Source of the DNA: a virus
Length of the DNA stretch: 30,840 bases
IMG/VR virus record: IMGVR_UViG_3300032296_001698
Location: 1 to 30,840 of that record
Direction: 5' to 3' (one strand)
Each line of letters starts with the position of its first letter. The first letter of the stretch is position 1. The notes under the pieces were generated by a model that saw only the letters and a list, made by a program, of their open reading frames with translations, made no database searches and had not been told where the DNA came from. Both the position numbers and the translations under genes were made by a program. Shown here piece after piece: positions 660 to 30,180 of this stretch.

Positions 660-1844
660 TTGAAATTCAAAAGAACAAAGTCTATTGATAGAATACTAAG
701 TATGAAAGCCACCAAGAAAGTTATTCAAGGTGGTTCTTCTGCTGGTAAAACATTTGCTATATTAGCAATCTTAATTGATAGAGCTATTAAAGAAGCAAAC
801 ATATCTATATCAGTTGTTGCTGAAAGTATGCCACATTTGAGAAGAGGTGCCTTAAGAGACTTCTTAAATATAATGAAAGAAACTGGTAGATACTTTGAAG
901 ACCACTTCAATAGAACAAATCTAATCTATACATTTTCAAATGGTTCTTATATTGAATTTTTTGCTGCTGATAGTCCTGATAAATTAAAAGGAGCACGTAG
1001 AGATATACTTTATTGTAATGAGGCCAATCATATATCATATGAAGCCTACCTACAATTATCTATTAGAACAAGAAGAGACATCTATATTGACTTTAACCCA
1101 ACAAAAAGATTTTGGGCTCATGATGAAGTCTTAAAAGAAGAAGGTAGTGAATTATTAATCTTAACTTATAAAGATAACTCTGCCTTAGACCAAAACACTA
1201 TTAATCAGTTTTTAGTTAATATAGAAAAGGCTAAGACATCTGACTATTGGAAGAACTGGTGTAAGGTTTATATTGATGGTGAAATAGGTTCATTAGAAGG
1301 AGTTATATTTGATAATTGGAAAACTATTGATAGAATACCTGATGAAGCCACCTTAGTTGGTTATGGATTAGACTTTGGTTATACGAATGACCCGACCGCA
1401 CTTGTAGGTGTTTGGAAATGGAATAACGAATATATCTTAGATGAAGAGATATACCAAACAGGATTATTAAACTCTACAATTAGTTCTATGATGAACCAAT
1501 TAAACATACCTAAATGGGGTGAAATATGGGCTGATAGTTCTGAACCTAAATCTATTAAAGAATTAAAAAACTCTGGTTGGAAAATTAATGGTGTTGTGAA
1601 AGGTAAAGATAGTGTGATGTGGGGAATTTCATTGATGCAGCAAAATAATTTATATATAACAAGTAGGAGTAAGAACATAATTGATGAATTTCAAAACTAT
1701 CAATGGATGAAAGATAGAGATGATAATTCAAAGAACATACCTATTGACGCTTTTAACCACGCTATTGATGCAATAAGATATTTATTCATGAGTAAGTTGG
1801 GTAAAAAGAATGAGAATAAAACACCATTTTATATCTCACGATAA
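660..1844 (+). CDS. terL: Terminase large subunit (TerL)
   Basis: This is the ATPase-nuclease motor that packages DNA through the portal and cuts it. The 394-residue product is of usual length. Walker A is GGSSAGKT (24-31), Walker B is DILYCNEA (115-122, catalytic E121), and DFNP (144-147) is the coupling motif. The RNase H-like nuclease half shows the expected acidic residues: GLDFGYTNDP (D238), IWADSSEP (D292) and NHAIDAIRY (D370). The start is TTG at 660; the ATG at 654 runs straight into TGA, and the next in-frame ATG (702) would cut close to Walker A. It sits between the methyltransferase and a small unknown gene, while the probable small subunit is at the other end of the window. Confidence is very high. 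Confidence 0.96.
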   Translation: MKFKRTKSIDRILSMKATKKVIQGGSSAGKTFAILAILIDRAIKEANISISVVAESMPHLRRGALRDFLNIMKETGRYFEDHFNRTNLIYTFSNGSYIEFFAADSPDKLKGARRDILYCNEANHISYEAYLQLSIRTRRDIYIDFNPTKRFWAHDEVLKEEGSELLILTYKDNSALDQNTINQFLVNIEKAKTSDYWKNWCKVYIDGEIGSLEGVIFDNWKTIDRIPDEATLVGYGLDFGYTNDPTALVGVWKWNNEYILDEEIYQTGLLNSTISSMMNQLNIPKWGEIWADSSEPKSIKELKNSGWKINGVVKGKDSVMWGISLMQQNNLYITSRSKNIIDEFQNYQWMKDRDDNSKNIPIDAFNHAIDAIRYLFMSKLGKKNENKTPFYISR

Positions 1845-1857
1845 AATAAGATTAGTT

Positions 1858-2283
1858 ATGAGCAAGACTAAATGGGAAAGAGATTGGGATGATATAATTA
1901 AGATTAACATTGTAGATGTTTTTGGTGTTGATGAATTATCTGCTATTATTGGTGCGCCTAATAAAATATCAACATCAATTATAAATATCTTTGAATTTTT
2001 AAAGAAATTAAAAAATAATAAATTTTATACGAAAAAAGAATTAGAAACCATTTATCTAGTTGTCTATGAAGATATACAATATATCAATGATATTTTATAT
2101 TATATGTGTTCAGACGAGGTTGTTGATACAATATATCGTGTTATAACAAACATATTTAATGAGTTGATATTAATCGCTAAAGATTTAGAAAATTACGAGT
2201 GTTCTGGTAATCTTCTAAATTTTAAAAATTATTGGTATTCACTGAATAGTATAAAAATCAATAGTAATAATGAGCAGAAATGA
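1858..2283 (+). CDS. Hypothetical protein, about 141 aa
   Basis: The frame is open from an ATG at 1810 inside terL, but the ATG at 1858 (MSKTKWERDWDD) is preferred: it lies 14 nt after the terL stop behind an A-rich leader like other starts here, and the first 16 codons of the longer version look like shadow sequence of terL. The product is helical, rich in Ile, Asn and Lys, with no motif I recognise and no membrane segment. Its 3' end overlaps the sigma-like gene by 14 nt, so the two are probably translationally coupled. Function unknown. Confidence 0.6.
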   Translation: MSKTKWERDWDDIIKINIVDVFGVDELSAIIGAPNKISTSIINIFEFLKKLKNNKFYTKKELETIYLVVYEDIQYINDILYYMCSDEVVDTIYRVITNIFNELILIAKDLENYECSGNLLNFKNYWYSLNSIKINSNNEQK

Positions 2284-2878
2284 AATCATTGACCAATTAT
2301 ATCGTTCTTATTTTATTAATGATTTAATAGACACAATAACATCTAATAATAAATTAAAATTTGATTTAAAGCAAGAACTATTTATCATATTACTTGAAAT
2401 GCCAGAATGGAGGATTAAAAGAGCATGGAATGAAAATTATTTAAACTATATGTGTGTTAATATATTGAAAAAGCAATATCATTCATCAACATCACCGTTT
2501 CATAAAAAATATAGAGCCGAGAAGTTTGATGAATTAACAGATTGGAATACATCAGATGAATTATTTGATTTAGTAGATAGTGAAGAAAATAGTGAAGACA
2601 TAATTAATAAGATTAGATGGATTGTTGAAAATAAATTAGATATGGTTGATAAAGAATTATTTAAACTTTATTATAAATGGGATAGATATGATAGATGGAT
2701 TGGTGATTTAAAAGATGATAGTTGCCAAAAAGAATGGAGTTCTTATAGAAAGATTGAAAAAAAATTAACTATTACACCAATTTCAGGTGGTAAGAAAATA
2801 GGAATTAGTAGAAATACTATATCTCTATCTCATCAAAGAAGTATAGAGAAGATTAAAAAATGGTTACGAAGAATATGA
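2270..2878 (+). CDS. Sigma-70-family-like protein (putative phage sigma factor)
   Basis: The 202-residue product resembles small sigma-like proteins found in phages of Bacteroidetes. The N-terminal half (about 3-85) has the EIIDQLY...DLKQELFIILLEMP...NYLNYMCVNILKKQYH pattern, matching a region-2-like helical core (polymerase and -10 binding). An acidic linker follows (about 88-115). The C-terminal end (about 165-200, GISRNTISLSHQRSIEKIKKW) reads as a region-4-like helix-turn-helix. It overlaps the upstream gene by 14 nt and the downstream one by 4 nt (ATGA). If functional it would redirect host RNA polymerase; the repeated late-promoter element in this window is an obvious candidate target, which is inference. 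It could instead be another helix-turn-helix regulator. Family call moderate. Confidence 0.62.
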   Translation: MSRNEIIDQLYRSYFINDLIDTITSNNKLKFDLKQELFIILLEMPEWRIKRAWNENYLNYMCVNILKKQYHSSTSPFHKKYRAEKFDELTDWNTSDELFDLVDSEENSEDIINKIRWIVENKLDMVDKELFKLYYKWDRYDRWIGDLKDDSCQKEWSSYRKIEKKLTITPISGGKKIGISRNTISLSHQRSIEKIKKWLRRI

Positions 2879-3173: not shown

Positions 3174-3374
3174 ATGAATGAATTAGATAAATTAGAATTT
3201 GAAAGGCTTTGTAATTTAACAGAGGCTAATGCTATTGATAAACATTCGGCACAAGACTTAATACAAAGGTATATGGACCCCGGCGCTAAGTATTGTATGT
3301 CCTGTGACCCATCAGTTAGAGCCATGTTTAGAAGATTAAAGGCCTGGTGGTTTGAGAATAAAGACAAATATTAA
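3174..3374 (+). CDS. Small conserved-looking hypothetical protein (66 aa, CxxC)
   Basis: A 66-residue charged, helical protein with a YCMSC motif near residues 42-46 and an aromatic C-terminal tail (RRLKAWWFENKDKY). The Cys pair alone is not enough for a zinc ribbon unless the protein dimerises. It begins 8 nt after the preceding stop and is the last gene of the terL group: the late-promoter element of the next unit overlaps its last codons. An opposite-strand frame over the same bases is a shadow. Function not recognised. Confidence 0.55.
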   Translation: MNELDKLEFERLCNLTEANAIDKHSAQDLIQRYMDPGAKYCMSCDPSVRAMFRRLKAWWFENKDKY

Positions 3375-3388
3375 ATTATTTATATTTA
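3360..3388 (+). promoter_or_regulatory. Putative phage late promoter P1 (AAAGACA-N14-TATATTTA)
   Basis: AAAGACA at 3360-3366 and TATATTTA at 3381-3388 with a 14-nt spacer. It is one of five perfect copies in the window. It overlaps the 3' end of the preceding gene and lies 27 nt before the tail-chaperone start. Confidence 0.72.
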
Positions 3389-6348: not shown

Positions 6349-6377
6349 AAAGACAAAAACTTTTATTAATATATTTA
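6349..6377 (+). promoter_or_regulatory. Putative phage late promoter P2 (AAAGACA-N14-TATATTTA)
   Basis: AAAGACA at 6349-6355 and TATATTTA at 6370-6377, perfect in both halves with a 14-nt spacer. It lies in the 51-nt gap before the 6396 tail gene. A tiny frame (ATG ACG ATA TGA, 6388-6399) between them overlaps the start of that gene. Confidence 0.75.
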
Positions 6378-7877: not shown

Positions 7878-10800
7878 TGAATTACATTCAGTTATTTATT
7901 AATGACCCAGCAACTGCTGAGTTAGATTTAAATCAAGAAATAGATATAGCTTTACAATATAGTATAGCTGAGATTACAGATGTGAGTAAAAGAAATGCGG
8001 CTTACTCTAAAACAATTATTTTACCTGGAACAAAAACTAATAATTATTGGTTTGGTAATTTATTTGATGTTAATGCTGATTTTACAATGTTTAATCCAAA
8101 TAAAAAAACATCTGCAAGGTTATTAGTAAATACAGAAACAGTAATTGATGGCTTTCTTCAATTAAGAAAAATTGTAAAATTAAATAATGTTGATAGTCAA
8201 GGTAATTTGATTAACTATGAGGTTGTTATATTTAATAATTCAGTTGATTTAATGAGTGTTATTGGTGAAAATCCTGTAAATGAATTAGATTTATCTCAAT
8301 TTGGACACACTTTTAGTGCTCAAAATATTAAAGATAGTTGGAATAATGAGTGGCAAGATGGTTATGTTTATCCAATGTTTGGTCTTCATACAAAAGACAA
8401 TCAATATAAAGTTGAATATTTTTATCCAGCGATATTCTATAAAACACTTTTAGACCAAATGATTAGAGGTGCTGGCTTTGGTTGGACTGGTAGTTTATGG
8501 TCAAATGAACAATTTGAAAAAGAAATTATTAGTTTTGTTAGTGATGGTAGACCAAAACTTTCAGATAATGAAAGATTAGAAAGATTATACTATGTTGGTT
8601 TATCACCATCTAATTTAAATTTATTTTTAGGTGAATTTCCAAACTTTGGAGGTTATAATAATTTACAAATACCTATAACTAATCTTGTAGGTGGTTGGAC
8701 TTTTCAATTTGCTGATGAAGTGAGTGGTGGATTTTTTGATAATGGTAATAACTGGAATGCAACAACCTATCAATGGGTTGTTAATAATACTGGTGATTAT
8801 GATTGTTCTTATAATTTAAGTTATAATTTTAATGTTAGGAATACTCATCCTTCAACTACTGTTGCAATTACTGAAGCTGATGTTCAAGTTAAATTTGAAC
8901 ATTTTCTTCAATATTCAACAAATGGTGGCTCAACATGGACTAATTGGGATGTTTCAACTCAATATAAAAGCATTTCACAATCAACAATAGCACCTGGTTC
9001 ATCAGCATCATGTTATGTTTATGTTGGCAGGCAAGCACCTCAAATAACTTTAAGTTCTGGAACAATTGTAAGATTGAGATGGAAAGCAGCCAAAGTAAAT
9101 TTAGGTTGGTGGGCTGGAACAGGTGGTAATTCAACACCAAAGTTGAATGCTTATTTAGATTTTAAAACAACAAATGGTGGAAATTGGATTAAGAATGATG
9201 CTAAAATAGTTGAGTTTACACAAAATCAATATATTGATTTAGGTAGGTATTTACCTGATAAAATTAAACAAAAAGACCTTCTTACCGATTTGATAAGAAG
9301 ATATAATTTGTATATACAAACTGATGCTGATAATCCAAAACTTTTAATATTTGATACCAGACCTGATTTTTATGAAAAAGGAATTATATTAGATTGGACT
9401 GATAAAAAAGATTATTCTCAAAGAGATGAGATTAGTTTATTATCTGATTTGCAGTCAAAATTAATGATATGGTCTTATAAACCTGATAGTGATGAATATA
9501 ATAAATTGTATAGTGAGTATACTGGTGATATCTATGGTCAATATAAATATTATTATGATAATGACTTTGTTATTGGTGAAGAAAAAATAGAAAGTCCTTT
9601 TAGTCCGACACCACTTGTTAAAACACCTTTTAATGCAATTGTTGCTGGTATAAATCCAGAAATACCAAAGGTAGCTCCGAGAGTTCTATACTGGGGTGGT
9701 TTAAGAAATTGTGATAGTTGGTCATGGGCGGCACTAGACCCAATTACTGGTTTAACTGGTGCAACTGAAAGTTTTTCTCAATATCCATATGCTGGTCATT
9801 TTGATAATCCAGTTGAACCTTCAATTGATATTAACTTTGGAACTTGTAAATACTATTTCTATAATGATTGGGAATTCATCACTGATAATAATATGTTTAA
9901 TACTTATTGGAGTGATTATAACAGACAAATAGAAAGTGGTAGATTAATTACATCTTATTTTTATTTAAATGAGTATGATATTAGATTTATAAAAGATAAT
10001 TTCTATACAAAAATATTTGTTTTAGATAGTTACTATTATATTAATAAAATAGTTGATTATAAACCATTACAGTATGGAACTACAAAAGTTGAATTAATTA
10101 AAATTGTTGATGGTATAAAATGGGAAGCAAAAAGAAATACTTCACTTATAGCTTCAAATCCTATTTCTGTATTTAATAATCTAAGTGATTTAGTTGTTGC
10201 TGGTTCAGGAAATGTATCTAGTGGTGGTGGTATATTAGTAGGAAGTAATAATATTGCTGGTGGTAAAACTGAATATCAAATAGGTGGTTTTACTTATTCA
10301 GGACTAAATAAATTTGCTGTAATTGGTAATGATAATAATTTAGCAGGTGATAAATCAATGATTATCGGTAATTCAAATATTATTGAAAGTGATTTCAGTT
10401 CTATAATTAGTGGAGATAGTAATGTTGTTAAAACATCAAATGCTTTTATTGCTAATGGTTCAAGAAACACTATTGACAGCTCAGCAACATCATTAATCTT
10501 AGGTGGTAATGATAATATTATTGAAGTAAGTGGCTCTACTAGTGCGACCGGCTCAGCTCCTATCATTATAGGTGGTAATAATAATGTAATATCAAGTATT
10601 ACTGGTAGTGTAATATTAATTGGCACCAATGGTATAACACAATCAAGTGAAAATACGGTTTATATTGGTAATAATTTTCAAATTGATATTGATAGTGGCT
10701 CTTATTCAGGTATGAATGTTTTTTACACAGAAGATGTTGCTGGTTCATCAGCTTCTTTAATTATACCTTTTGGTGGCGAACAATATTGGGACATCAATGG

Positions 10801-11353
10801 TGTGGTTACTCAAATGGCTAATAGAGCTATTTATGTAAGACCATCAGAAGTTAAAATAAAAAGTGGTATAACAGATTACTCTCAAGGTTTCTATTATGGT
10901 GATGAATTTTATAATGAGGTTTATGATAATAGCACGGCTCAGACAGTTGCTTGGAGTTCGATAAAAAACATAATGAGTGATGGTTATACAAATTTACAAG
11001 CAATCGGAACTACATTACCTTTTAATAATAGAGCATTTTTAAAATTAGACCCATCAATGATTGATACAGGAACGACATTTAAACAAGAAACTATTGGTTC
11101 AACTGAAACAGCTGAAATAAAAATTTTGGGTTTAAGTGGTAGTCAAACTATATTTATGGATGTTTATGATGGTATAAGTAATAATTCACAAATAGATTTA
11201 AATCAATATTATGTTTTAATGACGCCTGATGCTAATGCGACTTGGTTATATCTAGAAGCGGGTAGATTTAATTTAAAGAATGTTCCATCTACTGCTTCAA
11301 ATCCAGGTGATATATGGAAAGATGCTAATAATTTTCTAAGAATTGTTCCATAA
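7877..11353 (+). CDS. Tail hub/adhesin-like protein with YadA-head-like repeats
   Basis: 1158 residues. The N-terminal part (1-160, RNAAYSKTIILPGTKTNNYWF...) is a beta-rich tail module; residues about 470-520 (LLTDLIRRYNLYIQTDADNPKLLIF) resemble a tail-hub/gpD-like segment. Residues about 770-940 hold a run of short repeats of the type IIGxxNxI (IGNDNNLAG, IIGNSNIIES, IISGDSNVVKT, LILGGNDNIIEV, IIGGNNNVISS, IGTNGITQSS), as in the left-handed beta-roll heads of trimeric YadA-type adhesins. The last 200 residues look like a tail-fibre tip. It is thus a candidate host-contact protein as well as tail-tip component. Its stop overlaps the next late promoter (TAAAGACA). Confidence 0.65.
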   Translation: MNYIQLFINDPATAELDLNQEIDIALQYSIAEITDVSKRNAAYSKTIILPGTKTNNYWFGNLFDVNADFTMFNPNKKTSARLLVNTETVIDGFLQLRKIVKLNNVDSQGNLINYEVVIFNNSVDLMSVIGENPVNELDLSQFGHTFSAQNIKDSWNNEWQDGYVYPMFGLHTKDNQYKVEYFYPAIFYKTLLDQMIRGAGFGWTGSLWSNEQFEKEIISFVSDGRPKLSDNERLERLYYVGLSPSNLNLFLGEFPNFGGYNNLQIPITNLVGGWTFQFADEVSGGFFDNGNNWNATTYQWVVNNTGDYDCSYNLSYNFNVRNTHPSTTVAITEADVQVKFEHFLQYSTNGGSTWTNWDVSTQYKSISQSTIAPGSSASCYVYVGRQAPQITLSSGTIVRLRWKAAKVNLGWWAGTGGNSTPKLNAYLDFKTTNGGNWIKNDAKIVEFTQNQYIDLGRYLPDKIKQKDLLTDLIRRYNLYIQTDADNPKLLIFDTRPDFYEKGIILDWTDKKDYSQRDEISLLSDLQSKLMIWSYKPDSDEYNKLYSEYTGDIYGQYKYYYDNDFVIGEEKIESPFSPTPLVKTPFNAIVAGINPEIPKVAPRVLYWGGLRNCDSWSWAALDPITGLTGATESFSQYPYAGHFDNPVEPSIDINFGTCKYYFYNDWEFITDNNMFNTYWSDYNRQIESGRLITSYFYLNEYDIRFIKDNFYTKIFVLDSYYYINKIVDYKPLQYGTTKVELIKIVDGIKWEAKRNTSLIASNPISVFNNLSDLVVAGSGNVSSGGGILVGSNNIAGGKTEYQIGGFTYSGLNKFAVIGNDNNLAGDKSMIIGNSNIIESDFSSIISGDSNVVKTSNAFIANGSRNTIDSSATSLILGGNDNIIEVSGSTSATGSAPIIIGGNNNVISSITGSVILIGTNGITQSSENTVYIGNNFQIDIDSGSYSGMNVFYTEDVAGSSASLIIPFGGEQYWDINGVVTQMANRAIYVRPSEVKIKSGITDYSQGFYYGDEFYNEVYDNSTAQTVAWSSIKNIMSDGYTNLQAIGTTLPFNNRAFLKLDPSMIDTGTTFKQETIGSTETAEIKILGLSGSQTIFMDVYDGISNNSQIDLNQYYVLMTPDANATWLYLEAGRFNLKNVPSTASNPGDIWKDANNFLRIVP

Positions 11354-11380
11354 AGACATAGTTAGATAAAAATATATTTA
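11352..11380 (+). promoter_or_regulatory. Putative phage late promoter P3 (AAAGACA-N14-TATATTTA)
   Basis: AAAGACA at 11352-11358 overlaps the stop codon of the preceding gene; TATATTTA is at 11373-11380. The spacer is 14 nt. The tape-measure ATG is 20 nt downstream. Confidence 0.75.
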
Positions 11381-11400: not shown

Positions 11401-13653
11401 ATGGCTGAAACGGTAAGAATTAGAATACAGACCGACGGTGGTGAAGAACTAGCACAAAATTTAGAACAAGCATCTGATAGTGCCAAAAGTTTAAAAGCTC
11501 AATTAAGAGAAATTACTCAGGAGCTACAAAACACAGACCCTGGAACTGCTAGATTTAGTGAACTAACTCAACAAGCCGGTGCCTTAAAAGACCAAATATC
11601 AGATACTGCGGCAGTTATTAATGCAACTGCTGGTGGTCCTGTTGAGAACTTAGGTAGAGGTTTACAACAAGCAGCATCTATTGGTATTGCAGGAATGCAA
11701 GGTCTTATGTCGGCTCAAGCTCTTTTTGGTGATAAATCTGAAGCTCTTCAAGAGACATTAGTTAAGTTACAGGCTGTTGCTGGTATGGCTCAAGCAATAG
11801 AAACATTAGGTGGTCTTGGAGATGCTGTAACAAATCTAAAAGCAGGTTTTGGTAATTTCTTTACATCTGTAAAAGCAGGTCTTCAAGGAATTAAAGGTGC
11901 TGTTGCCGCAACAGGTATAGGTCTATTAGTAATAGCTGTTGGTGTTCTTGTTGCTTATTGGGATGATATTAAAACTGCTGTTACTGGAGTTAGTGCTGAA
12001 CAAGAAAAGCAAAAAAAGATGGCAGAAGCCGAGGCTAAAGTTCAACAAGAAAAATTAGATACATTAAACAGCCAAGATAATATTTTAAGATTACAAGGTT
12101 TAACAGAAAAGCAAATATTAGAAAAAAAGATTGCTCAAACAGATGAGACTATTAAGGCATTAGAGGTTCAAATGGAAACAAATAAAAATGTTTTCAAACA
12201 ACAATATGAAAGCGCTAAGGCTAATAAAGAAATTCTTAAAGGTATATTAACATTTATACAAATCCCATTAGTAACTATTCTTAAAACTATTGATGAAATA
12301 GCTAATTTTGCTGGATTTGAAAGTAATTTAGCTGAAGGTTTATTAGATTGGGAAGCGAGTTTTTTATTTGACCCAGAAGGTATAAAAAAAGAATATGATA
12401 CTCAACTCAAAGAAAATGAAAAGCAACTTCTAAAATTAAAAAATGATAGAGCTGGTATGCTTTTAGAAATTAAAGAAATTGATAAAAGAGATGCTGAAGA
12501 AAGAAGAAGGTTGGCTCAGGAGAATAATAAAAAGGTCGATAAGGATACTTCATCAACTGCTAAAGATAGACTGGCTGCTAAAAGAGAATTACAAGATGCT
12601 GAATTAGAATTGATGCAAGATGGTATTGAAAAAGAATTACTTGCTAATAAGTATAAATATGAGCGAATGATTGAAGATACTAATTTAGATGAGACTAAAT
12701 TGAAAGATGAAAAGTTAAAGATTAATGAGGCATATGCTAAAGAAAAGATACAGCAAGATGAGGTCATAAGAACTGAATATAAAAAGAAAGAAGAAGAAAG
12801 ATTAAAAGAAGAGGCTGAGAAGGAAAAGGAGAGAATGGCTAAAATTCGCGAGCAAGAAAAGCAAGAGGTTGAAACTGCTGCTAAAATGCGGGATAAAAGA
12901 ATTGAATGGATGGAAGAAGGTAAGGCAAAAGAAATTGCCGCAAGAGAAGCCGCTTTTCAAGATGAATTATGGGAACTTCAAAACTTTTTAGATGAAGAAA
13001 AGATTACAAGAGAAGAATATGATGAATTAACTAAAACATCAACCAAAAAAAGAAATGATGATATTGCTGCTATTAATAAAGCTTATAGAGATGCAGAAAA
13101 AGAAGCAGAAGCAGAATTAAGAGATAAAAAGATACAAGCTGTTAAAGATACTATCGACACGATAAGTAATTTAGCCGCACTTTTTGCTGGTTCAAGTGAG
13201 AAAGAACAAAGAAGAGCATTCAATATTCAAAAAGGTGCTCAAATAGCTCAAGCAACTATTGATACTTATAAATCGGCTACTGGTGCTTATTCATCTTTAT
13301 CATCTATACCTGTTGTTGGTCCTGCTTTAGGAGCTGCGGCTGCTGCGGCTGCAATAACTGCTGGTTTATTAAACATCAAAAAGATAGCCGCTACTCAATT
13401 TAAAGCAAGTGGAGGTGGAGGTGGTGAAAATCCAGCAGCACCTTCTATACCTGAAAGCACTGCTAATAATTTATCAGCACCGATACCTGATAGTTTAAGT
13501 TTATTAGGTGGCGCATTAGGTGGTTCATCAGGTTCAGGTTTGAATTTATATGGCTCAAGACAAGGAGCTGTTAGAAGTTATGTAGTTGAAAGTGATATTA
13601 CGAATACACAGAATACATTACAAACTTATAAGCAAAGGTCTGAAATTGGATAA
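11401..13653 (+). CDS. Tape measure protein
   Basis: A 750-residue protein that would span the tail lumen and set tail length. The N-terminal half alternates Ala/Gln/Leu helices (EELAQNLEQASDSAKSLKAQ) with a hydrophobic Gly/Ala zone ending in a membrane-like segment near 174-188 (GLLVIAVGVLVAYW). A long charged coiled coil follows (about 200-580, many EEKEKE-type heptads). The C-terminal region has a second hydrophobic Ala-rich segment (about 640-662) and a Gly/Ser tail. This is standard tape-measure architecture, and its length fits a long flexible tail of roughly 0.1 micrometre at 1.5 angstrom per residue. It has its own late promoter, far from the chaperone gene. Confidence 0.9.
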   Translation: MAETVRIRIQTDGGEELAQNLEQASDSAKSLKAQLREITQELQNTDPGTARFSELTQQAGALKDQISDTAAVINATAGGPVENLGRGLQQAASIGIAGMQGLMSAQALFGDKSEALQETLVKLQAVAGMAQAIETLGGLGDAVTNLKAGFGNFFTSVKAGLQGIKGAVAATGIGLLVIAVGVLVAYWDDIKTAVTGVSAEQEKQKKMAEAEAKVQQEKLDTLNSQDNILRLQGLTEKQILEKKIAQTDETIKALEVQMETNKNVFKQQYESAKANKEILKGILTFIQIPLVTILKTIDEIANFAGFESNLAEGLLDWEASFLFDPEGIKKEYDTQLKENEKQLLKLKNDRAGMLLEIKEIDKRDAEERRRLAQENNKKVDKDTSSTAKDRLAAKRELQDAELELMQDGIEKELLANKYKYERMIEDTNLDETKLKDEKLKINEAYAKEKIQQDEVIRTEYKKKEEERLKEEAEKEKERMAKIREQEKQEVETAAKMRDKRIEWMEEGKAKEIAAREAAFQDELWELQNFLDEEKITREEYDELTKTSTKKRNDDIAAINKAYRDAEKEAEAELRDKKIQAVKDTIDTISNLAALFAGSSEKEQRRAFNIQKGAQIAQATIDTYKSATGAYSSLSSIPVVGPALGAAAAAAAITAGLLNIKKIAATQFKASGGGGGENPAAPSIPESTANNLSAPIPDSLSLLGGALGGSSGSGLNLYGSRQGAVRSYVVESDITNTQNTLQTYKQRSEIG

Positions 13654-13668
13654 AAAATAATTTATAAT

Positions 13669-14274
13669 ATGAGTGAAATAAAATTAATTGAGTGGGAAGT
13701 AGATGATGTCATGGGTGAATTAAGGAGAATATCTTTAGTTTCAGAACCTGCTATTGAAGAAGATTTTTTACTTTTTGGCTCAGATACAATGAAGTTTAAA
13801 ACTATTGATAATGAAAAGAGAGTTTTAACTGGACCGGCGATGAGGCCAAATATTAATATTCCTAGAAAAGATGAAGAAGGTAATTTATATTATGGTTTCT
13901 TTTCGGAAGATACAGTTAGAAAATGCGCTGAGATATTTTTCAAATCTAATAGTAATGCTAATAGAACTAATTTAGAACATGAATTTGAAATTGATGGTGT
14001 TTTTGTTTTTGAAAGTTGGATAGTTGAAGACCCAGAGATGGATAAATCTAAATATTTAGGTTTTAAAAATATTAAAAAAGGCGATTGGTTTGTTTCTATG
14101 AAAGTTGAAAATGAAACTGTATGGAATAATTACCTAAAAACCGGTTTAATAAAAGGTTTTAGTGTTGAGATTAAGGCGGCAGAGGTTAAAATATTATCTA
14201 ATATAAAAGATATTTTATTAAATGATATAGATGATGATTTAAAGTTTAAAATGCTTCAAAACCTCTTAAAATGA
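13669..14274 (+). CDS. Prohead maturation protease, XkdF-like (Peptidase_S78_2 type)
   Basis: 201 residues. The pattern GPAMRPNINIPR (55-66), YYGFFSEDTVRK, NLEHEF (H104), WIVEDPEMDKSKYLGF and the late LIKGFSVEI (S165) matches the XkdF-type phage serine protease family, giving a His104/Ser165 pair of the expected order and spacing. These proteases cleave scaffold and capsid tails inside the prohead. The gene starts 15 nt after the tape measure and is followed by scaffold and capsid genes, the usual neighbours. Assignment is good from motifs and context. Confidence 0.82.
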   Translation: MSEIKLIEWEVDDVMGELRRISLVSEPAIEEDFLLFGSDTMKFKTIDNEKRVLTGPAMRPNINIPRKDEEGNLYYGFFSEDTVRKCAEIFFKSNSNANRTNLEHEFEIDGVFVFESWIVEDPEMDKSKYLGFKNIKKGDWFVSMKVENETVWNNYLKTGLIKGFSVEIKAAEVKILSNIKDILLNDIDDDLKFKMLQNLLK

Positions 14275-14281
14275 AAATAAA

Positions 14282-14310
14282 TATGACGAATTGAGTAGTC
14301 ATTATATTTA
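14282..14310 (+). promoter_or_regulatory. Variant late promoter P4 (TATGACG-N14-TATATTTA)
   Basis: TATATTTA at 14303-14310 is perfect; the upstream half at 14282-14288 is TATGACG, sharing the central GAC and one A with AAAGACA at the same 14-nt spacing. It precedes the scaffold-capsid-tail tube operon by 21 nt. Weaker than the perfect copies. Confidence 0.5.
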
Positions 14311-14331
14311 TATAAAAAGATAATAATTGTT

Positions 14332-15156
14332 ATGAATAAAAAATCGATTTTAAACGAAATCAAATCAATACTTTTTGGTTCGGAAGAAGATATGAAATTT
14401 AAAGAAGCTAAATCTGGTGACTTTATTTTAAGAGTTAATGGTGATGATTTTGCTGAAGGTCAAGAAATCAGTTTAGTTACTGCAGATGGCTTAATACCTG
14501 TTGAAGATGGTGTTTATCCATTAGAAGATGGTAGAATATTAAATATTCTTGCTGGTAAAATTAATAAAATTGAAGGTGAGATTAAAGAAGAAGAAGAAGA
14601 AGAAAAACCAGAAATTGAAATTGAACTTGCTGAGACAGAATTATTAGATGGAACTAAAGTTAAGGTTGAAGGTGATGTTGCAATAGGTTCAAAAGTTATG
14701 GTTGATAAAGATGGTGAGTGGATACAAGCACCAGAAGGACAACACAATTTGGCTGATGGTAAAGTTATTTATGTAGATGCTGAAGGTATGATTAATGAAA
14801 TTGAAACACCAGATACTAAAAAAGTTGAAGAAGAAATGGAAGCGGTTGTTGAAGCACCTGCTTATGTTGATGAGACTGCTGGTATGACTTCATCTATTGT
14901 TGAAGAAAAAATGGGTGATATGGAAAAAAGAATTGAGGAATTAGAAAAGAAGATTGAGGAAATGGGTAAAGTAAATATGGAGGTTGCTAATTTTTCTAAA
15001 AATGTTGAGAATAAATTAGATACATTCATTAAGGAAACACCTGCTGACTTAGAATTTAAATCTTTAAAATCTGATTTCAGTTCTTATGTTGAAAAAAACA
15101 AAGATACTAAAACAAGTAATTTAGAGGCTATTAAAAATATTAGAAGCAAAAAATAA
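14332..15156 (+). CDS. Putative capsid scaffolding protein with a duplicated domain
   Basis: 274 residues, strongly acidic. Two related units are visible: about 25-82 (EGQEISLVTADG...VEDGVYPLEDGRILNI...INKIE) and about 98-160 (LLDGTKVKVEGD...APEGQHNLADGKVIYV...INEIE), separated by a Glu-run linker (about 84-92). Residues about 190-220 form a charged coiled coil (MEKRIEELEKKIEEMGK). Position between prohead protease and major capsid protein, acidity and coiled coil fit a scaffold/prohead core protein digested during maturation. No catalytic motif is seen. Scaffold is inferred from context. Confidence 0.65.
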   Translation: MNKKSILNEIKSILFGSEEDMKFKEAKSGDFILRVNGDDFAEGQEISLVTADGLIPVEDGVYPLEDGRILNILAGKINKIEGEIKEEEEEEKPEIEIELAETELLDGTKVKVEGDVAIGSKVMVDKDGEWIQAPEGQHNLADGKVIYVDAEGMINEIETPDTKKVEEEMEAVVEAPAYVDETAGMTSSIVEEKMGDMEKRIEELEKKIEEMGKVNMEVANFSKNVENKLDTFIKETPADLEFKSLKSDFSSYVEKNKDTKTSNLEAIKNIRSKK

Positions 15157-15186
15157 TCCGAGAGGACAAAAAAATTAAATAAAAAT

Positions 15187-16152
15187 ATGAGTTTAAACTT
15201 ATTAGGATTAACGGCGTATGTTGAACAAAACGCGTCAGATTTAATCAAAGAAGCTGTATTAAAGGGTAGAACTGTAGATTTAGTAACTGTGCAAGGTGGT
15301 ATCAAATCTGCACAAACTATTAACAGAATTTCTACATCTTTAACAGGACAGGCTGGTGCTTGTGGTTGGAACGCTGCTGGAACAACTACTATAGACCAAA
15401 GAACTATCACAGTATGTGATGTTAAAATCAACGAGGCAATTTGTCTTAATGATTTACAAGAATACTATACGCAAGTTGCTATGAACCCAGGTTCTTACAA
15501 CACTGCAATCCCTTTTGAGCAAATCTTTGCTGAAAACAAAAGAGACCAAATCATGGCTATGATTGAAGATATCGTTTGGAGAGGTAATACTGCAACTGGT
15601 TCAGGAAATTTAGCACTATGTGATGGTTTTGTTAAATTGTTTGATGCTGGAGTAACTGCTTCATCTGGAAGATACATCACTTATTCTACAACTGCTCTTT
15701 CTGGAGCTGGTTCAGGTGGTGCTTATTCTGCTACATCATCTAATATCTATGAAGTTATTGATGAATTAGCAAGATTAGTTAATACTAACGTTATCGACGC
15801 AACAGATTTACATGTTTTCTTATCTTATGCAGATTACAGAGCATATGCTAAATTGTTAAGAGATAAAAATTACTTTGCTTACACTGGTGCTGAAAACCAA
15901 GGACAAGATTTTTCACAAATGCATCCTGGAACAAATATCAGAGTAATCGCTGTAAGAGGTTTGAATACTGCTAATAGAATTCTTTTAGCTGAGGCTTCTA
16001 ACCTTTATATCGGAACTGATTTACTTTCTGACGCAGAAGATTTCAAAGTATGGTATTCACAAGACTATGATGAAGTTAGATTTTTGGCTAAATTCAAATT
16101 AGGAGTTCAAGTTGCTTTCATTGAGAACGTTTGTTGGGCAAGAGGATATTAA
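15187..16152 (+). CDS. Major capsid protein
   Basis: 321 residues with the mix expected for an HK97-fold capsid protein: N-terminal helical arm (LTAYVEQNASDLIKEAVLKG), a central region with a spine-like helix (NIYEVIDELARLVN), HVFLSYADYRAYAKLLRDKNYF, and closing strands (AEDFKVWYSQDYDEVRFLAKFKLGVQVAFIENV). The gene follows protease and scaffold genes and is followed by the probable tail tube. Codons lean towards C-ending forms (ATC, AAC, TAC) more than in the neighbouring genes, consistent with very high expression. Identification is by context plus sequence pattern rather than a unique motif. Confidence 0.85.
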   Translation: MSLNLLGLTAYVEQNASDLIKEAVLKGRTVDLVTVQGGIKSAQTINRISTSLTGQAGACGWNAAGTTTIDQRTITVCDVKINEAICLNDLQEYYTQVAMNPGSYNTAIPFEQIFAENKRDQIMAMIEDIVWRGNTATGSGNLALCDGFVKLFDAGVTASSGRYITYSTTALSGAGSGGAYSATSSNIYEVIDELARLVNTNVIDATDLHVFLSYADYRAYAKLLRDKNYFAYTGAENQGQDFSQMHPGTNIRVIAVRGLNTANRILLAEASNLYIGTDLLSDAEDFKVWYSQDYDEVRFLAKFKLGVQVAFIENVCWARGY

Positions 16153-16170
16153 AAATAAAGAATTGATTTA

Positions 16171-16188
16171 AGGGGTCTAATGGCCCCT
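16171..16188 (+). other. Hairpin without a U-tract between capsid and tail tube genes
   Basis: A seven-pair stem (AGGGGTC against GGCCCCT, one G-U pair) closes a TAAT loop. It is followed by A-rich sequence, not T, so it is not a standard terminator. It may protect the 3' end of the capsid transcript or mark a processing site. Confidence 0.55.
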
Positions 16189-16217
16189 ATAATCAAATAA
16201 AAAAAATTAAATTAAAT

Positions 16218-16727
16218 ATGGCATGTTTATTAAATTCTGGATACACACTTGGGTGTCGCGATAGCATTGGCGGCATCAGTTTAGCCTATATCGGAAATTT
16301 TGATGCAGACCAAACATATACTCTTGATGCTAGCAATAATATTGTTGGAGTTACAGGTTCAACAGTTTCTTACTATACTTTTGAGCAAGAAATGGAGACT
16401 GGAACTTTCAATCAAACAGGAGCTTATTCAACAGAAAATGGAACTATATTCTTTACTCAGGAATTAACCTTAATGTTCCATAAGAATGATGCTTCTTTGA
16501 GAAATCAATTATTAATCTTATCACAAGCAAATCTTTCTATCATTGTTAAAGACCAAAGAAGTCAATATTGGCTTTTAGGTTTCCAAAATGGAGTTAGAGT
16601 TACTGCTGGTGCTATGAATACAGGTAAAGCATTTGGAGATATGAATGGTGTTACAATCACTTTCACTGGTAAAGAGCCAGTTCCTGCTTATAGAATTGAT
16701 GATATTAATGACTTTGCTATTGTATAA
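16218..16727 (+). CDS. Probable major tail (tube) protein
   Basis: A 169-residue beta-rich protein. SYYTFEQEMETGTFNQTG, followed by TQELTLMFHKNDASLRNQLL and IIVKDQRSQYWLLGFQNGVRVT, then the ending GKAFGDMNGVTITFTGKEPVPAY, is the kind of pattern seen in siphophage tail tube proteins, where the late strand reads G-x-x-x-T-x-T-G-x-E-P. It lies directly behind the capsid gene and before a strong terminator, so both abundant virion proteins would share one transcript. A minor head protein is the alternative. Confidence 0.62.
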   Translation: MACLLNSGYTLGCRDSIGGISLAYIGNFDADQTYTLDASNNIVGVTGSTVSYYTFEQEMETGTFNQTGAYSTENGTIFFTQELTLMFHKNDASLRNQLLILSQANLSIIVKDQRSQYWLLGFQNGVRVTAGAMNTGKAFGDMNGVTITFTGKEPVPAYRIDDINDFAIV

Positions 16728-16757
16728 TAGCATTTTCTTCATAATCCTAAATAGACG

Positions 16758-16790
16758 ACCCGTAGCAACCCCGCTACGGGTTTTCTGTTT
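16758..16790 (+). terminator. Rho-independent terminator after the capsid-tail tube operon
   Basis: A nine-pair stem (ACCCGTAGC at 16758-16766, GCTACGGGT at 16773-16781) with a six-base loop is followed by TTTTCTGTTTT. It is far more GC-rich than its surroundings. The next late promoter begins directly behind it. Confidence 0.9.
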
Positions 16791-16794
16791 TAAA

Positions 16795-16823
16795 AAAGAC
16801 AAAAGATAATAACTTTATATTTA
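16795..16823 (+). promoter_or_regulatory. Putative phage late promoter P5 (AAAGACA-N14-TATATTTA)
   Basis: AAAGACA at 16795-16801 and TATATTTA at 16816-16823 with a 14-nt spacer. It abuts the T-tract of the preceding terminator and lies 18 nt before the next start, so transcription is stopped and restarted here. Confidence 0.78.
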
Positions 16824-16841
16824 TATAAAAATAAAATCCGT

Positions 16842-17045
16842 ATGAAATTAAAACTAAAACAAGAATTCATAGAATATTCTATATCATGTAAAGGAGAAAG
16901 GATATATTTTGGTGATATAAAAGAAGAAGATTACGAGAAATATTATAAAATGGGTTATACTAAATTCTTTCAAGAAGTAAAAATAAAAGAGAAAGAAATA
17001 ATTATTGAAAAAATAAATAAAGAAGAAGATAATGATACTAATTAA
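16842..17045 (+). CDS. Small hypothetical protein (67 aa) ahead of the fibre gene
   Basis: A highly charged 67-residue protein (MKLKLKQEFIEYSISCKGERIYFGDIKEEDYEKYY...) ending in a Lys/Glu/Ile helix. It looks like a short beta-alpha protein. The first gene behind late promoter P5, it overlaps the fibre gene by 14 nt. Co-expression suggests a small virion or fibre-assembly role, but no family is recognised. Confidence 0.6.
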   Translation: MKLKLKQEFIEYSISCKGERIYFGDIKEEDYEKYYKMGYTKFFQEVKIKEKEIIIEKINKEEDNDTN

Positions 17046-20000
17046 TAAAGGGGAAACAAAAAAAGTTTATTTTACTCTTAACCCTACTATCAATCCAGTT
17101 TACTACCTGTTTAAGTTTACATCAAACGACACCGGTAATTTAACATATATGATGTCTAGTGATATCTCTACGGTTAATAACTATCAATCATTTTTATTCA
17201 TAGAAGGTGGAACTAATAGTTTTGCTGGTGGATTTACAGTAAATCCTGGAACTTATGATTATGAAGTTTGGGAAACACCTTATAACAATAATTTAACAAC
17301 AGCATCTGCAAGTGGTGTTTTAGAAATAGGTCTAATGACTGTATTAGGTGATTATTGTTATTCACCTGAGATAGATACAGATTATGTTTATTATGATGAA
17401 TGCTCTGGTCCATCTGTATACGGTATAACAGGCGCAACAGGCGCAACAGGCGCAAATGGAACAAGTGGAACTTCTGGTATAGATGGCACATCAGGAACAA
17501 ATGGCACATCTGGTGAGAGTGGAACAAATGGAACAAGTGGAACTTCTGGTATAGATGGCACATCAGGTATAGATGGAACAAGTGGTTCTTCTGGCTCAAG
17601 TGGTTCTTCTGGCTCAAGTGGTTCTTCTGGGTCATCTGGAACATCAGGAACATCAGGAACAAGAGGAACCAGTGGTTCAAGTGGTTCATCAGGAACTAGT
17701 GGTTCATCAGGAACTGCTGGTTCATCAGGAACATCTATATCTGCGACTTTATTTGAAGCATATTTATTATCACCAACTTATTCTACCGTAATTGGTTATT
17801 TAACTAATAATAATAATTGGAGCGAAGGTGGAACATATTCAGGAACAAATAGTATAACAGGAACTTATCAAGGTCAATTATATTATAGTGGTTCATATTT
17901 ATTTACAGCAGTTGATGATAACTCTTGGGTTAGAATTAATTTAGCCGCTAATGCTGGTGCAACAGGTGCTACTGGTTCAAATGGTTCATCAGGAACATCA
18001 GGAACATCTGGTCAAAATGGTTCATCAGGAACATCTGGTCAAAATGGTTCATCAGGAACATCAGGTTCTTCTGGTGCAAATGGTTCATCTGGAATATCCG
18101 GTTCATCAGGAACATCAGGTTCTTCTGGTAGTTCTGGTTCATCTGGTATAGATGGTTCATCAGGAACATCAGGTTCTTCTGGTGCAATTGGTGCTACTGG
18201 TCCAGCAGGTGCAAATGGTATATCAGCAGGACAAATTTATTATTTTAATGAAAGCCAAAACTCAGATGTAAGTGGATATAAAGTTCTTTCAATAAATCCT
18301 TCTACCGCTTCTCAACAAACAGTTACGACAAATCTTACAGGTAGCCAACAAGGTGTAATGATTAGTGATTATATCACATCTCAACTTGGATTTGCTGTTA
18401 TACCTGGTGGTATTCAAAGATTTCATACTCACTTATTAAAGCAAGCAAGTAACGATAATATAGAGTTTTATGTGGAAATACAATTGGCTGATAGTTCTGG
18501 AACACCAATTGGAACAACATTAACATCTGGTAGTTCATTAGTTGGCTGGGTTGATGCTACAACACCAGTTGAGGTGACGGTTGATTTAACATTACCTACT
18601 ACAACTATTGACCCTACAAATAGAATGATAGTTCGTCTTTATTTAGATAACAATGATAGTTCTTCAAAAAGTGTAGTTTATTATACAGAAGGAACTTCCT
18701 ATTATTCTTTTGTGCTTACATCAGTAGGTGTTATTTATTCAACCTCAGGAACTTCAGGTCAAAGTGGTTCATCAGGAACATCAGGTGAAAATGGAACATC
18801 AGGAACATCAGGTGAAAGTGGAACATCAGGAACATCAGGTGAAACTGGTGCTACTGGTCCTGCAGGAGCATATGAGTATGTTGTTGAAGATACTATGAAT
18901 AAAACATTTTTAATTTCAATTACAGGCTCAACTACTTATGATGAAATTTTAATAGACCCTGAATATTTTATTGGTGGTAGTAGATTATATTCAACTGATG
19001 GTGATAATGAAACATCATTAAATTTTTCAGCTAATGGTGGTGCTAATATAGATATTGTGTCTACATCAAGTGCAAACATTACAAGCTCATTAGGTATATC
19101 AAATAACAAAACAACATTATTAAGTGTTGATAGTCCAAATACTACAACTAATAGAATTGAAGTAAGTAATGAACCAGGTGACCCATTTATTAAGGTAAAT
19201 TCATTAAATTCAACAACAAGTGAAGAAGGTGGTTTAAATGTAAACTTTCCAACAAATTTAATACTATTCTCTACTGATATAACTAATACAGCCAACATAG
19301 AGATTTCACCTAGTTCAATTAATATTACAGATGAAAGTTCTAATGCCAGCATATTAACAAAGGCTGAATATACTACAATAGAGCAAACAGCTCAAACAAC
19401 TCACTTTATTGATGGTTCTGGAAAGGCATTTATATATCATGAAGCTGGTGATAATAATTTTTCATCAATAACATATTCTATTATAAGTCAAAATGAAAGT
19501 TCAATTTTAAGTCAGGTATATAATACAACTAATACATCAAATATGGAGATTTCTTCAATTGGTGTTTCAAGTTCAACAACTGATGGAAATATAACATTAT
19601 TAAATTCTATTAATAATGCTGTAGGTGCAATTGATATATCTTGGAGTGATGCAACTTATACTTATCAAACTTATATTGATGGTTTAAATGGAACAAAAAT
19701 TATAACTAAAAATTCAGGTTTTGAGAATGCTAATATAAACTTGGCTGATGAGGCCTTTTCTACATCTACATATGATACATTATCATCAGGTGCTACATAT
19801 TCTCAAATTAATCAACAACCAAATCAAATTCAAATTATTTCACAGGATGTAAATAATTTATTATCTAATATTCAATATTTTAAGTTAGACGAAACTTCAA
19901 ACATTATAGAAGCAACTGGCTTTGAGAAAACTGAATTAATCGCTAATTCAAATTCATTTGGCTATACTGCTTATAATTTAGTAAGTGGTTCAACTACTAT

Positions 20001-20559: not shown

Positions 20560-20786
20560 TGCAATGGATTATAAATAGCGAAGGTGAAGATTGGCAAAAT
20601 ATACTTTTTGTCTATGATGAAGGAAACTGGGAAATCACATTAGATAAAAACTTATCAGATAGGGAAATTAATTTGTTTATATTAAAAAGAGTGGATGAAT
20701 TAACAGACGAGTTTTTGGAGAAACAAACCTATGATTTCTCAGACCTAATAGTTGATTGGACCACAAAAAAAGAAGGTAATAAGTAA
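20559..20786 (+). CDS. Small hypothetical protein (75 aa)
   Basis: An acidic 75-residue protein, MQWIINSEGEDWQNILFVYDEGNWEITL..., probably one beta sheet followed by a helix (REINLFILKRVDELTDEFLEK). Its ATG shares a base with the fibre stop (TAATG), and its own stop shares a base with the next start. Such one-base overlaps imply coupled translation, so it probably serves the fibre proteins on either side, perhaps as a fibre chaperone. That role is inferred from position only. Confidence 0.6.
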   Translation: MQWIINSEGEDWQNILFVYDEGNWEITLDKNLSDREINLFILKRVDELTDEFLEKQTYDFSDLIVDWTTKKEGNK

Positions 20787-22045: not shown

Positions 22046-22074
22046 AAAGACATATTATATAAAAAGTATATTTA
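22046..22074 (+). promoter_or_regulatory. Putative phage late promoter P6 (AAAGACA-N14-TATATTTA)
   Basis: AAAGACA at 22046-22052 starts directly after the preceding stop; TATATTTA is at 22067-22074 after 14 nt. The portal ATG comes only 6 nt later, implying a leaderless or nearly leaderless transcript. Confidence 0.75.
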
Positions 22075-22080
22075 ATAGTA

Positions 22081-23220: not shown

Positions 23221-23221
23221 A

Positions 23222-23788
23222 ATGAGTAGGGTTTTACTTACAAGCACTTGGAGATTAAAAAAAAATACTCCAATACAACAAAATGTTGATGATGATTTAT
23301 TAAATCCTTATATCTTTAAGGCACAAGAAACTCATATTCAGCAAATATTAGGAACAAATCTTTATGATAAGGTTATGAATGATGTTGTTGCTAATAGTAT
23401 TAATGGTTATTATAAAATTCTTTTAGACGATTATATAACCCCTTGTTTAATTGAATGGGCTTTTTACGAGGCATTACCTTTTATTAGTTTAAAAATAACA
23501 AATAAAAGTATAGGTAGAGGTAATGCTGAATTTCTTAATGAAGGTGATTTAAATGATTTAAAATATCTTAGGCAAACTGTAAGAGATTTGGCTGAATTTT
23601 ATGGACAAAGAATAATTGGTTATTTAAAACAATATTCTAATAACTTTCCAGAATATACAACTAATAGCGGTTTAGATAAAATAGTTCCGAATGGTTCTAA
23701 TTATTTTAGTGGTGTTTATCTTGGAGGTGGTAGGTCTCAAAATTGCCGATGGGGTTTAGATGATAGGGGAACAAAATATATTTTATAA
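23222..23788 (+). CDS. Head-tail connector/neck protein (adaptor-like)
   Basis: 188 residues, mostly helical: NVDDDLLNPYIFKAQETHIQQILGTNLYDKVMNDV, then DYITPCLIEWAFYEALPFISLKITNKSIGR and LRQTVRDLAEFYGQRIIGYLKQY. This all-helical bundle ending in a disordered tail resembles phage head-completion adaptors (gp6-like/DUF6712-type in Bacteroidetes phages). It follows the portal by 1 nt, as expected for the first ring below the portal. The family name is from memory; the role is supported by position. Confidence 0.65.
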   Translation: MSRVLLTSTWRLKKNTPIQQNVDDDLLNPYIFKAQETHIQQILGTNLYDKVMNDVVANSINGYYKILLDDYITPCLIEWAFYEALPFISLKITNKSIGRGNAEFLNEGDLNDLKYLRQTVRDLAEFYGQRIIGYLKQYSNNFPEYTTNSGLDKIVPNGSNYFSGVYLGGGRSQNCRWGLDDRGTKYIL

Positions 23789-23790
23789 AG

Positions 23791-24042: not shown

Positions 24043-24045
24043 TTT

Positions 24046-25059: not shown

Positions 25060-25063
25060 AATT

Positions 25064-25754: not shown

Positions 25755-25755
25755 T

Positions 25756-25971: not shown

Positions 25972-25980
25972 AATTAATTT

Positions 25981-27900: not shown

Positions 27901-27932
27901 TTTGGTGGATTAGTAAATAGTCCTTATATTTG
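27901..27932 (+). promoter_or_regulatory. Host-type (Bacteroidetes) promoter
   Basis: TTTG at 27901-27904, 20 nt, then TATATTTG at 27925-27932, matching the known Bacteroidetes -33 TTTG / -7 TAnnTTTG consensus. It lies directly behind a terminator and before the small gene at 27954, as expected for an early gene served by host polymerase. Confidence 0.62.
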
Positions 27933-28771: not shown

Positions 28772-30154
28772 ATGTTTAGTAAATTGAAATCAGTTTCTAA
28801 ATTCTCAAATGAAACTATTAGCTTGTATGATTTGTATCTTCTTGTAAAGAACAATCCACAAAAACCAATTATCGATGAGATAAGGTCTGTTGAGAAAGGA
28901 CCAGTCTATAATAAATTAAAATCACAATTAAATTGTATAACACCTCATACTATTCAATCAGGATTAAAAAGTAGTGATATAATAGGTTTATCTGGCTATC
29001 TATTTTATGATATAGATGGGTTTGATACCAAAGATGAGCTGGATGATACCATAAATAAATTAGTAAGTAGTTTTCCTATTTCTTTTTTACAAAGAAGTGT
29101 TGGTGGTTTAGGAATAAACTTTCTTATTAAGGTAGATGATACCAATTTTCAACTGGATGATACCAACTTTATTTCTGTTTATAATTATGTAAGAGAACTT
29201 TTAATCTCTAATGGTTTTATTATTGATAAGTATGCTGGTGGTATATCGAGAAAGATGAATATATCAAGTGATAATAGATGTATATTTAATAATGAGGTAT
29301 CATTCAGTATAGATAAGGTATCACTATTAAACCATTTAGGAAGTTCAAGTAAAAAATCAAACAATAAAAGAGTGGGTTATATTACACTGGATGATACCTT
29401 AGAATTATTACCTAAAGAAGATTTAAACATTAAAACACAAATCACTTATGATAAAGATATAAATGGTGATTACATAATAGAAAATATGGATTACTATTCT
29501 ATCCTAATACCAAAAGTCATCAAAGATGGTTTTAAACATAAATTATATACAAGAATAATAAATGGACTTTACTATATCAATTCATCAATTACAAGAAATG
29601 AAGTTTATTCATATTTATACTACCTAAATACATCAGCACAACCACCTATGAATTTATTTAGACTAAAACAACTTGTAAATTGGTTATGTAACGAAATAGA
29701 GACTACAGGAGAGATTAGAATTAAACCGAGAATAAAGAGGATACACTTTAATGAAAAAAGTAATTTAACAAAAAAAGAAAAACAAAGTATGGGAGCAAAA
29801 GTAAGAAATACAGAGCAGAGAAATAAAACAATTCAACAGATAATTGATGCAAGAAACCTATTATGGAAAAGTAATGAAGAACCTACACAGAAGAAAGTAT
29901 GTCAAATAACAAACTTAAGTATAGCAACAGTTAAAAGAAACTGGAAAATGGCATTAGAAGGTGATTTTATAGACATAAATGAAGTATTAGATGTGAAAGT
30001 AGAAAAAGAACCTGAGATTAAATTAGATGTAATAGAAGAAGAAGACTTTTGGGAAGGATTTTCTGTTACAAAAAGACATACAAAAGGACCTGAAGATGAA
30101 GATTTTGGTGATAGTGATGGTATAGATGGGTTTATAGAAACAATTGACATCTAA
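28772..30154 (+). CDS. Replication protein with BT4734/VirE-N-like (primase-like) domain
   Basis: 460 residues. The N-terminal 130 residues read LNCITPHTIQSGLKSSDIIGLSGYLFYDIDGFDTKDEL (DID at 80-82) and SVGGLGINFLIKV (109-121), the pattern of the BT4734-like VirE-N domain found in Bacteroidetes mobile elements and linked to primase folds. The two Asp of YDID would be the metal ligands. A middle region is helical, and a helix-turn-helix-like segment (KKVCQITNLSIATVKRNWK, about 374-395) precedes an acidic tail. I infer replication initiation or priming. The gene holds repeated 12-mers and is preceded by the structured element. Confidence 0.7.
   Translation: MFSKLKSVSKFSNETISLYDLYLLVKNNPQKPIIDEIRSVEKGPVYNKLKSQLNCITPHTIQSGLKSSDIIGLSGYLFYDIDGFDTKDELDDTINKLVSSFPISFLQRSVGGLGINFLIKVDDTNFQLDDTNFISVYNYVRELLISNGFIIDKYAGGISRKMNISSDNRCIFNNEVSFSIDKVSLLNHLGSSSKKSNNKRVGYITLDDTLELLPKEDLNIKTQITYDKDINGDYIIENMDYYSILIPKVIKDGFKHKLYTRIINGLYYINSSITRNEVYSYLYYLNTSAQPPMNLFRLKQLVNWLCNEIETTGEIRIKPRIKRIHFNEKSNLTKKEKQSMGAKVRNTEQRNKTIQQIIDARNLLWKSNEEPTQKKVCQITNLSIATVKRNWKMALEGDFIDINEVLDVKVEKEPEIKLDVIEEEDFWEGFSVTKRHTKGPEDEDFGDSDGIDGFIETIDI
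29039..29398 (+). repeat. Iteron-like 12-mer repeats inside the replication gene
   Basis: CTGGATGATACC occurs exactly at 29039, 29153 and 29387, with GTAGATGATACC at 29132, exactly 21 bp before the second. All are in frame, encoding (L/V)DDT. Identical codon choice each time, including the here uncommon CTG, suggests selection on the DNA itself. Confidence 0.5.
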
Positions 30155-30180
30155 GACAAAAGGGAGACAGAACATATTTA
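30152..30180 (+). promoter_or_regulatory. Variant late promoter P7 (TAAGACA-N14-CATATTTA)
   Basis: TAAGACA at 30152-30158 coincides with the stop codon of the replication gene; CATATTTA is at 30173-30180. Each half has one mismatch and the 14-nt spacing is kept. It lies 38 nt before the probable small terminase start. Confidence 0.6.

Follow-up and report, generated by a model that had tools for sequence, protein, structure and literature searches.

A two-domain sigma-like protein encoded by a probable Bacteroidota phage and the two-box late promoter that it probably reads

The virus record analysed here over its whole length (the window, 30,840 bases), which probably comes from a virus of Bacteroidota bacteria, encodes downstream of the gene for the large terminase subunit (terL) a protein that is very probably an ECF-like late sigma factor, made up of domains 2 and 4 only and acting at promoters of the form AAAGACA-N13/14-TATATTTA. 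In the mechanism that we propose, this protein would replace the host primary sigma factor on host core RNA polymerase and steer the enzyme to such promoters upstream of the operons for head, tail, portal and tape measure, so that late transcription would be switched on, with a timing that we infer. If it works as other sigma factors do, the −35 box AAAGACA would be recognised by domain 4 and the −10 box TATATTTA by domain 2. A phage sigma factor that turns the host polymerase to late promoters is a known design, represented by T4 gp55 and phiEco32 gp36 (PMC2988020, PMC4281155); the novelty appears to lie in the protein family, in the two-box promoter and in a −35 box that changes jointly with the protein. 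In the part of the literature that our search covered, we found neither a description of such a sigma–promoter pair nor a paper on late gene control in Bacteroidota phages.

The gene starts with ATG, encodes 202 residues and lies, as an earlier note on this DNA had indicated, between terL and the first late promoter, with one further ORF separating it from terL (Table 1). It is kept in 15 of 15 closely related records at 52–65% identity and, judged from the sequence, is a real gene rather than a chance frame. The intervening ORF was considered as a required partner and rejected, being missing in two motif-bearing records (G008 and L131). The ends of the window do not join into a circle and its first gene, a DNA methylase, has no N-terminal part, so that genes may be missing from the window. 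Another locus, L042, is a fragment of a record that is 99.9% identical to the window over 13100–26777; alignment of the window gene with L042 suggested a different repeat number for a direct repeat of about 63 bases at 17972–18183, inside the large gene 17032–20559.

Table 1. Positions of the genes and promoters of the window that are discussed in the text.
Feature	Position	Strand	Remarks
terL, large terminase subunit	660..1844	+	Terminase_3/3C match
ORF between terL and the sigma-like gene	1810..2283	+	
Sigma-like protein gene	2270..2878	+	residues 1 to ~85 predicted sigma2-like, 86–98 flexible linker, ~108–202 predicted sigma4-like
Late promoter AAAGACA-N14-TATATTTA before ORF 3416	3360..3388	+	exact; orthologous sites in relatives
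Late promoter before ORF 6396	6349..6377	+	exact; orthologous sites in relatives
Late promoter before tape measure gene 11401	11352..11380	+	exact; orthologous sites in relatives
Degenerate late promoter TATGACG-N14-TATATTTA before ORF 14332	14282..14310	+	3 mismatches; alone at chance level
Late promoter before ORF 16842	16795..16823	+	exact
Late promoter before portal gene 22081	22046..22074	+	exact; orthologous sites in relatives; −10 box ends 6 nt before ATG
Host-type sigma-A promoter TTG-N20-TATATTTG, presumed early region	27902..27932	+	
Degenerate late promoter TAAGACA-N14-CATATTTA before putative small terminase gene 30219	30152..30180	+	2 mismatches; count alone at chance level

The earlier note had called the protein sigma-70-like, a description that the predicted fold and weak Sigma70_r2 matches in distant homologues support and to which Pfam and PHROG added nothing, as no family of either library matched the window protein itself. 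Searches by tblastn returned no match to it among named phages and no relative among genome contigs of 84,980 species. None of the known sigma-family profiles rose above cut-off for the window protein or its relatives, Sigma70_r4 gave no match at all, and PDB profile searches with the protein family yielded no sigma match. Fast-evolving phage sigma factors can escape curated sigma profiles. In the distant homologues (L136 and L152–L154), Sigma70_r2 matched at the expected place, with E values of 4e-5 to 2e-3 per genome that are below the curated cut-off. The C termini of these proteins are canonical compact helix-turn-helix sequences, relative to which the window branch has about a dozen additional residues, located at about residues 167–178 of the window protein as an insert inside the helix-turn-helix of its sigma4-like part.

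A structure model built from 13 relatives (pLDDT 79.6) has two helical parts, one N-terminal and one C-terminal, with a low-confidence linker between them; with 202 residues and two folded parts only, the protein is predicted to have neither region 1.1 nor sigma3. When the model was compared by VIA-align with the 86 chains ranked best by Foldseek, sigma factors accounted for 46 of the 49 matches listed, in favour of the sigma fold that the earlier note had proposed to look for in a predicted structure, and the best match was sigmaE (1or7; Z 8.1, 145 residues). The two-domain matches have a large rmsd (14–25 Å), as expected if the two domains are placed differently. The C-terminal part fits sigma4 of several sigma chains at 1.9–2.4 Å over 62–68 residues (Z 6.0–6.9). 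The sigma2-like part aligned to sigma factors within the whole-model comparison; folded alone, it matched sigmaB over 84 residues at 3.5 Å (Z 4.5), tied with an unrelated enzyme. Foldseek alone gave no significant match for either the whole model (E 0.34) or the sigma2 domain, and the structural matches in BFVD include phage sigma24-like proteins. Prediction thus supports a sigma fold, in which the modelled sigma4 assignment is firmer than that of sigma2, and the fold and the distant homologues together point to a two-domain sigma factor (sigma2 and sigma4), the architecture of ECF sigma factors.

As is predicted for the window protein, ECF (group 4) sigma factors such as E. coli sigmaE (1or7), SigW and AlgU combine sigma2 and sigma4 through a short flexible linker in about 200 residues, and they are its top structural matches. 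It differs from them in having no detectable sequence match, in the insert within the sigma4 helix-turn-helix and in that no anti-sigma gene was recognised near its gene; its −10 box, unlike the ECF-type motif SM6 of F. psychrophilum, has no CGT (PMC9723704). Among phage proteins, phiEco32 gp36 is an ECF-like sigma factor by which host polymerase is brought to the middle and late promoters of the phage (PMC4281155), which is what we propose for the window protein in so far as it too would be a phage-encoded ECF-like sigma factor. Alignment of our family profile with gp36 by hhalign was in register at region 2.1 and not significant (E 0.062, against 0.35 for a control protein). The phiEco32 promoter motif is tAATGTATAtA, with no AAAGACA-like box reported there (PMC4281155), whereas that of the window is AAAGACA-N14-TATATTTA. 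T4 gp55, which the earlier note had named as an example of such a late switch, is likewise a phage sigma-family protein that drives late genes, but it has no sigma4 and forms a split sigma factor with gp33, which mimics sigma4 (PMC2988020). The window protein, with its own predicted sigma4-like domain and a two-box promoter, is ECF-like rather than gp55-like in its predicted architecture.

AAAGACA alone occurs in the window at chance level (11 copies, 8.4 expected). In contrast to the 100 shuffles, which gave none, the window has five sites of AAAGACA-N14-TATATTTA, all in the sense direction and all before late genes, 6–27 nt upstream of ORFs 3416, 6396, 11401 (tape measure), 16842 and 22081 (portal); on these counts the motif, and with it the late promoter to which the earlier note had referred, is real. 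A hairpin terminator-like site (16757–16782) ends just 5′ of the fourth of these promoters. The first of two degenerate copies precedes ORF 14332, which lies shortly before the probable major capsid gene and whose orthologue is preceded by sites in three relatives (G013, G020 and G022). The second precedes the probable small terminase gene (terS), upstream of which promoters also occur in L003, L007 and L128; it could be the promoter of a packaging operon to which the sigma gene may belong, in which case positive feedback would be possible.

At some promoters the −10 box lies only 4–6 nt before the ATG, as at 22046–22081 in the window and before the ORF-3416 homologue in L007, L128, L143 and L145; if transcription begins 4–5 nt downstream of the box, the distance seen in flavobacteria, the late mRNAs made from them would have little or no leader. 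The window also encodes, at 25756–25971 (−), a small conserved protein of 71 residues, and an apparent homologue of it in L128 begins 5 nt after a late promoter. In L216 (G013), long hairpins around an AT-repeat loop (ACCACTA...TAGTGGT; sense strand, 8485–8561 and 14491–14596) take the place of the usual promoter before two late genes.

Without fixing the −10 box, we collected AAAGACA/TANNTTTN pairs at spacers of 11–17, and 29 of the 32 pairs were TATATTTA at spacer 13 or 14, none ending in G; the last base of the phage box is A. The final G of the sigma-A promoters of F. johnsoniae, TAnnTTTG, is nearly invariant (PMC6847099). The phage promoter has the TAnnTTT part in common with the Bacteroidota primary sigma promoter TTTG/TAnnTTTG, and departs from it in that A replaces the nearly invariant last G and the AAAGACA box replaces TTTG (PMC6847099). 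The late promoters could, as the earlier note had allowed, be host sigma-A promoters at which the host enzyme reads the −10 box and a phage activator, the window protein or another, binds AAAGACA. The TAnnTTT common to TATATTTA and the host −7 box would suit this arrangement, as would a sigma4-like domain serving as a plain DNA-binding domain. It fits poorly, however, with a box that ends in A, no pair having been found with a terminal G, and with the strict 13–14 bp between the boxes; moreover, the proteins that match in structure are sigma factors, aligned over both domains, and no other regulator is common to all motif-bearing records. We therefore consider it unlikely and retain the phage sigma factor as the probable reader of both boxes.

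To relate gene and promoter, relatives were gathered via the sigma-like gene and via terL and then scanned for the motif; most of these metagenomic records are incomplete, and because gene and motif have a common ancestry, the co-occurrence counts represent few independent events. Among 48 whole records we found 41 exact sites (spacer 13 or 14), confined to 14 records, all 14 of which carry a close homologue of the gene. All 41 sites share their strand with the sigma-like gene, and the reversed pattern, scanned as a control, gave 0. In L008, the fifteenth record with a close homologue, the sequence stops at the gene, and the 33 other records, in which the gene is absent or diverged only, have no exact site. 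About ten relatives have such sites at orthologous genes, and one record (G015) has an in-frame stop inside the sigma-like gene, yet three promoter sites are kept. Homologues at 45% identity (G013, G011 and G012) come without repeated boxes, G013 having one convincing site, and no clear repeated motif was found in these three records or in G014, G021 and G023.

Relatives lacking the gene, in which boxes would, according to the earlier note, refute the proposal, had no repeated boxes, except for same-group fragments that do not reach the position of the gene. The 67 gene-less TerL relatives (809 kb) contained 0 exact sites, with the relaxed motif at chance level. A fragment whose TerL is 60% identical to that of the window (L149/G019) lacks the gene and has no site, and in it terL is followed directly by the ORF-3416 homologue. 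Cultured relatives (TerL 37–48%; Flavobacterium FPSV-S2, Elizabethkingia TCUEAP1, Bacteroides BF1-2 and Phocaeicola BV737P3) have neither gene nor motif. A motif-first scan of the viral collection returned at least 118 loci, mostly single chance matches; among the matches listed, the sigma-like gene is present in 11, and the multi-site loci without it are fragments of the same phage group (L042, L108 and L101), of which L108 spans structural genes only and L101 falls within G008, which has the gene. In another sigma-like branch (L091, L079, L031, L054, L041 and L111), the gene has a match to AAAGACA-N14-TATATTTA about 90 nt before it, in conserved coding sequence, and this match may be due to chance or else to autoregulation. 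Together, these results show a joint distribution and a shared strand for gene and promoter.

Some relatives encode a second phage sigma, a gp55-like protein (phrog_234), found in two lineages (L008:1094–1489; L227:10847–11590, which is G018; and also G016 and G017). In one case it forms a fusion with an endonuclease VII-like zinc ribbon. Among named phages, its closest relatives are those of huge phages, including the Prevotella Lak phages, and it has no similarity to the window protein. Its presence in L008 and G016–G018 (E 8e-8 and 8e-6) raises the possibility that it reads the late promoters, but this is extremely improbable: it is absent in ten motif-bearing records, including G000, G002 and G008 (29–31 kb; the records may be incomplete), and it would leave unexplained the change of the −35 box with the other gene. 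As a general reader it was rejected, being found in four records only.

This change of the −35 box emerged from a dyad search that was run without guidance on the records that have diverged homologues. In G020 and G022, whose homologues are about 30–35% identical, AAACA lies about 13 bp before TATATTTA, giving the motif AAACA-N13-[AT]ATATTTA, in which A stands in place of the −35 box G and the distance to the −10 box is unchanged. Several of the AAACA sites precede orthologues of window late genes (3416-, 14332- and 7877-like). In the diverged group, the relaxed motif matched at 10 sites in the sense direction and at none in antisense (0.75 expected), against 2 and 1 in the 67 gene-less relatives (0.8 expected). 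The AAACA box had been derived from two records, and 12 loci with G020-type homologues, fetched afterwards, served as the hold-out; they contained 12 sense AAACA sites (0.2 expected) and no AAAGACA. Each of the 11 unique sense sites lies 3–17 nt before an ORF; there were also five antisense AAACA matches, three with no ORF behind and two at one orthologous position. No examined record carries both box types. Two-box promoters of fixed spacing, AAAGACA-N13/14-TATATTTA and AAACA-N13-[AT]ATATTTA, thus go with the gene, and the −35 box changes together with it.

AAAGACA records have R, Y or K at residue 181, at the predicted start of the recognition helix, whereas AAACA records have H there; two other homologue lineages (L132 and L134) have H too, but no clear motif, and the link between residue and box is a correlation within a few lineages. 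That two branches of one phage sigma family have the same −10 box and evolved distinct −35 specificities, AAAGACA in one and AAACA in the other, in connection with this start of the region-4 recognition helix, has in our estimation an even chance of being correct. The protein might also be sigma-like and yet not initiate at these promoters, for example by appropriating or inhibiting the host sigma factor, with something else of shared ancestry reading the motif. Every association being comparative, and with shared ancestry, leaves room for such a role, but in two branches a change in the −35 box is matched by one in the recognition helix, and we regard it as very unlikely. The fold, the co-occurrence and the joint −35 change instead support the proposal of the earlier note that a phage sigma factor is the partner of the late promoter.

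The ECF-like sigma factor proposed here and its promoter give a specific regulator–promoter pair for Bacteroidota phages, where late gene control appears little studied, and a probable function for a gene that standard family libraries miss. The motif allows late operons in metagenomic phages to be marked from sequence alone, and the family offers a comparative system in which −35 recognition appears to have changed between relatives. Should the pair prove active in vitro, it would offer a candidate tool for gene expression in Bacteroidota, bacteria with promoters unlike those of E. coli, and if the two branches do have distinct −35 specificities, they would provide a natural set of mutually exclusive sigma–promoter pairs for Bacteroidota RNA polymerase.
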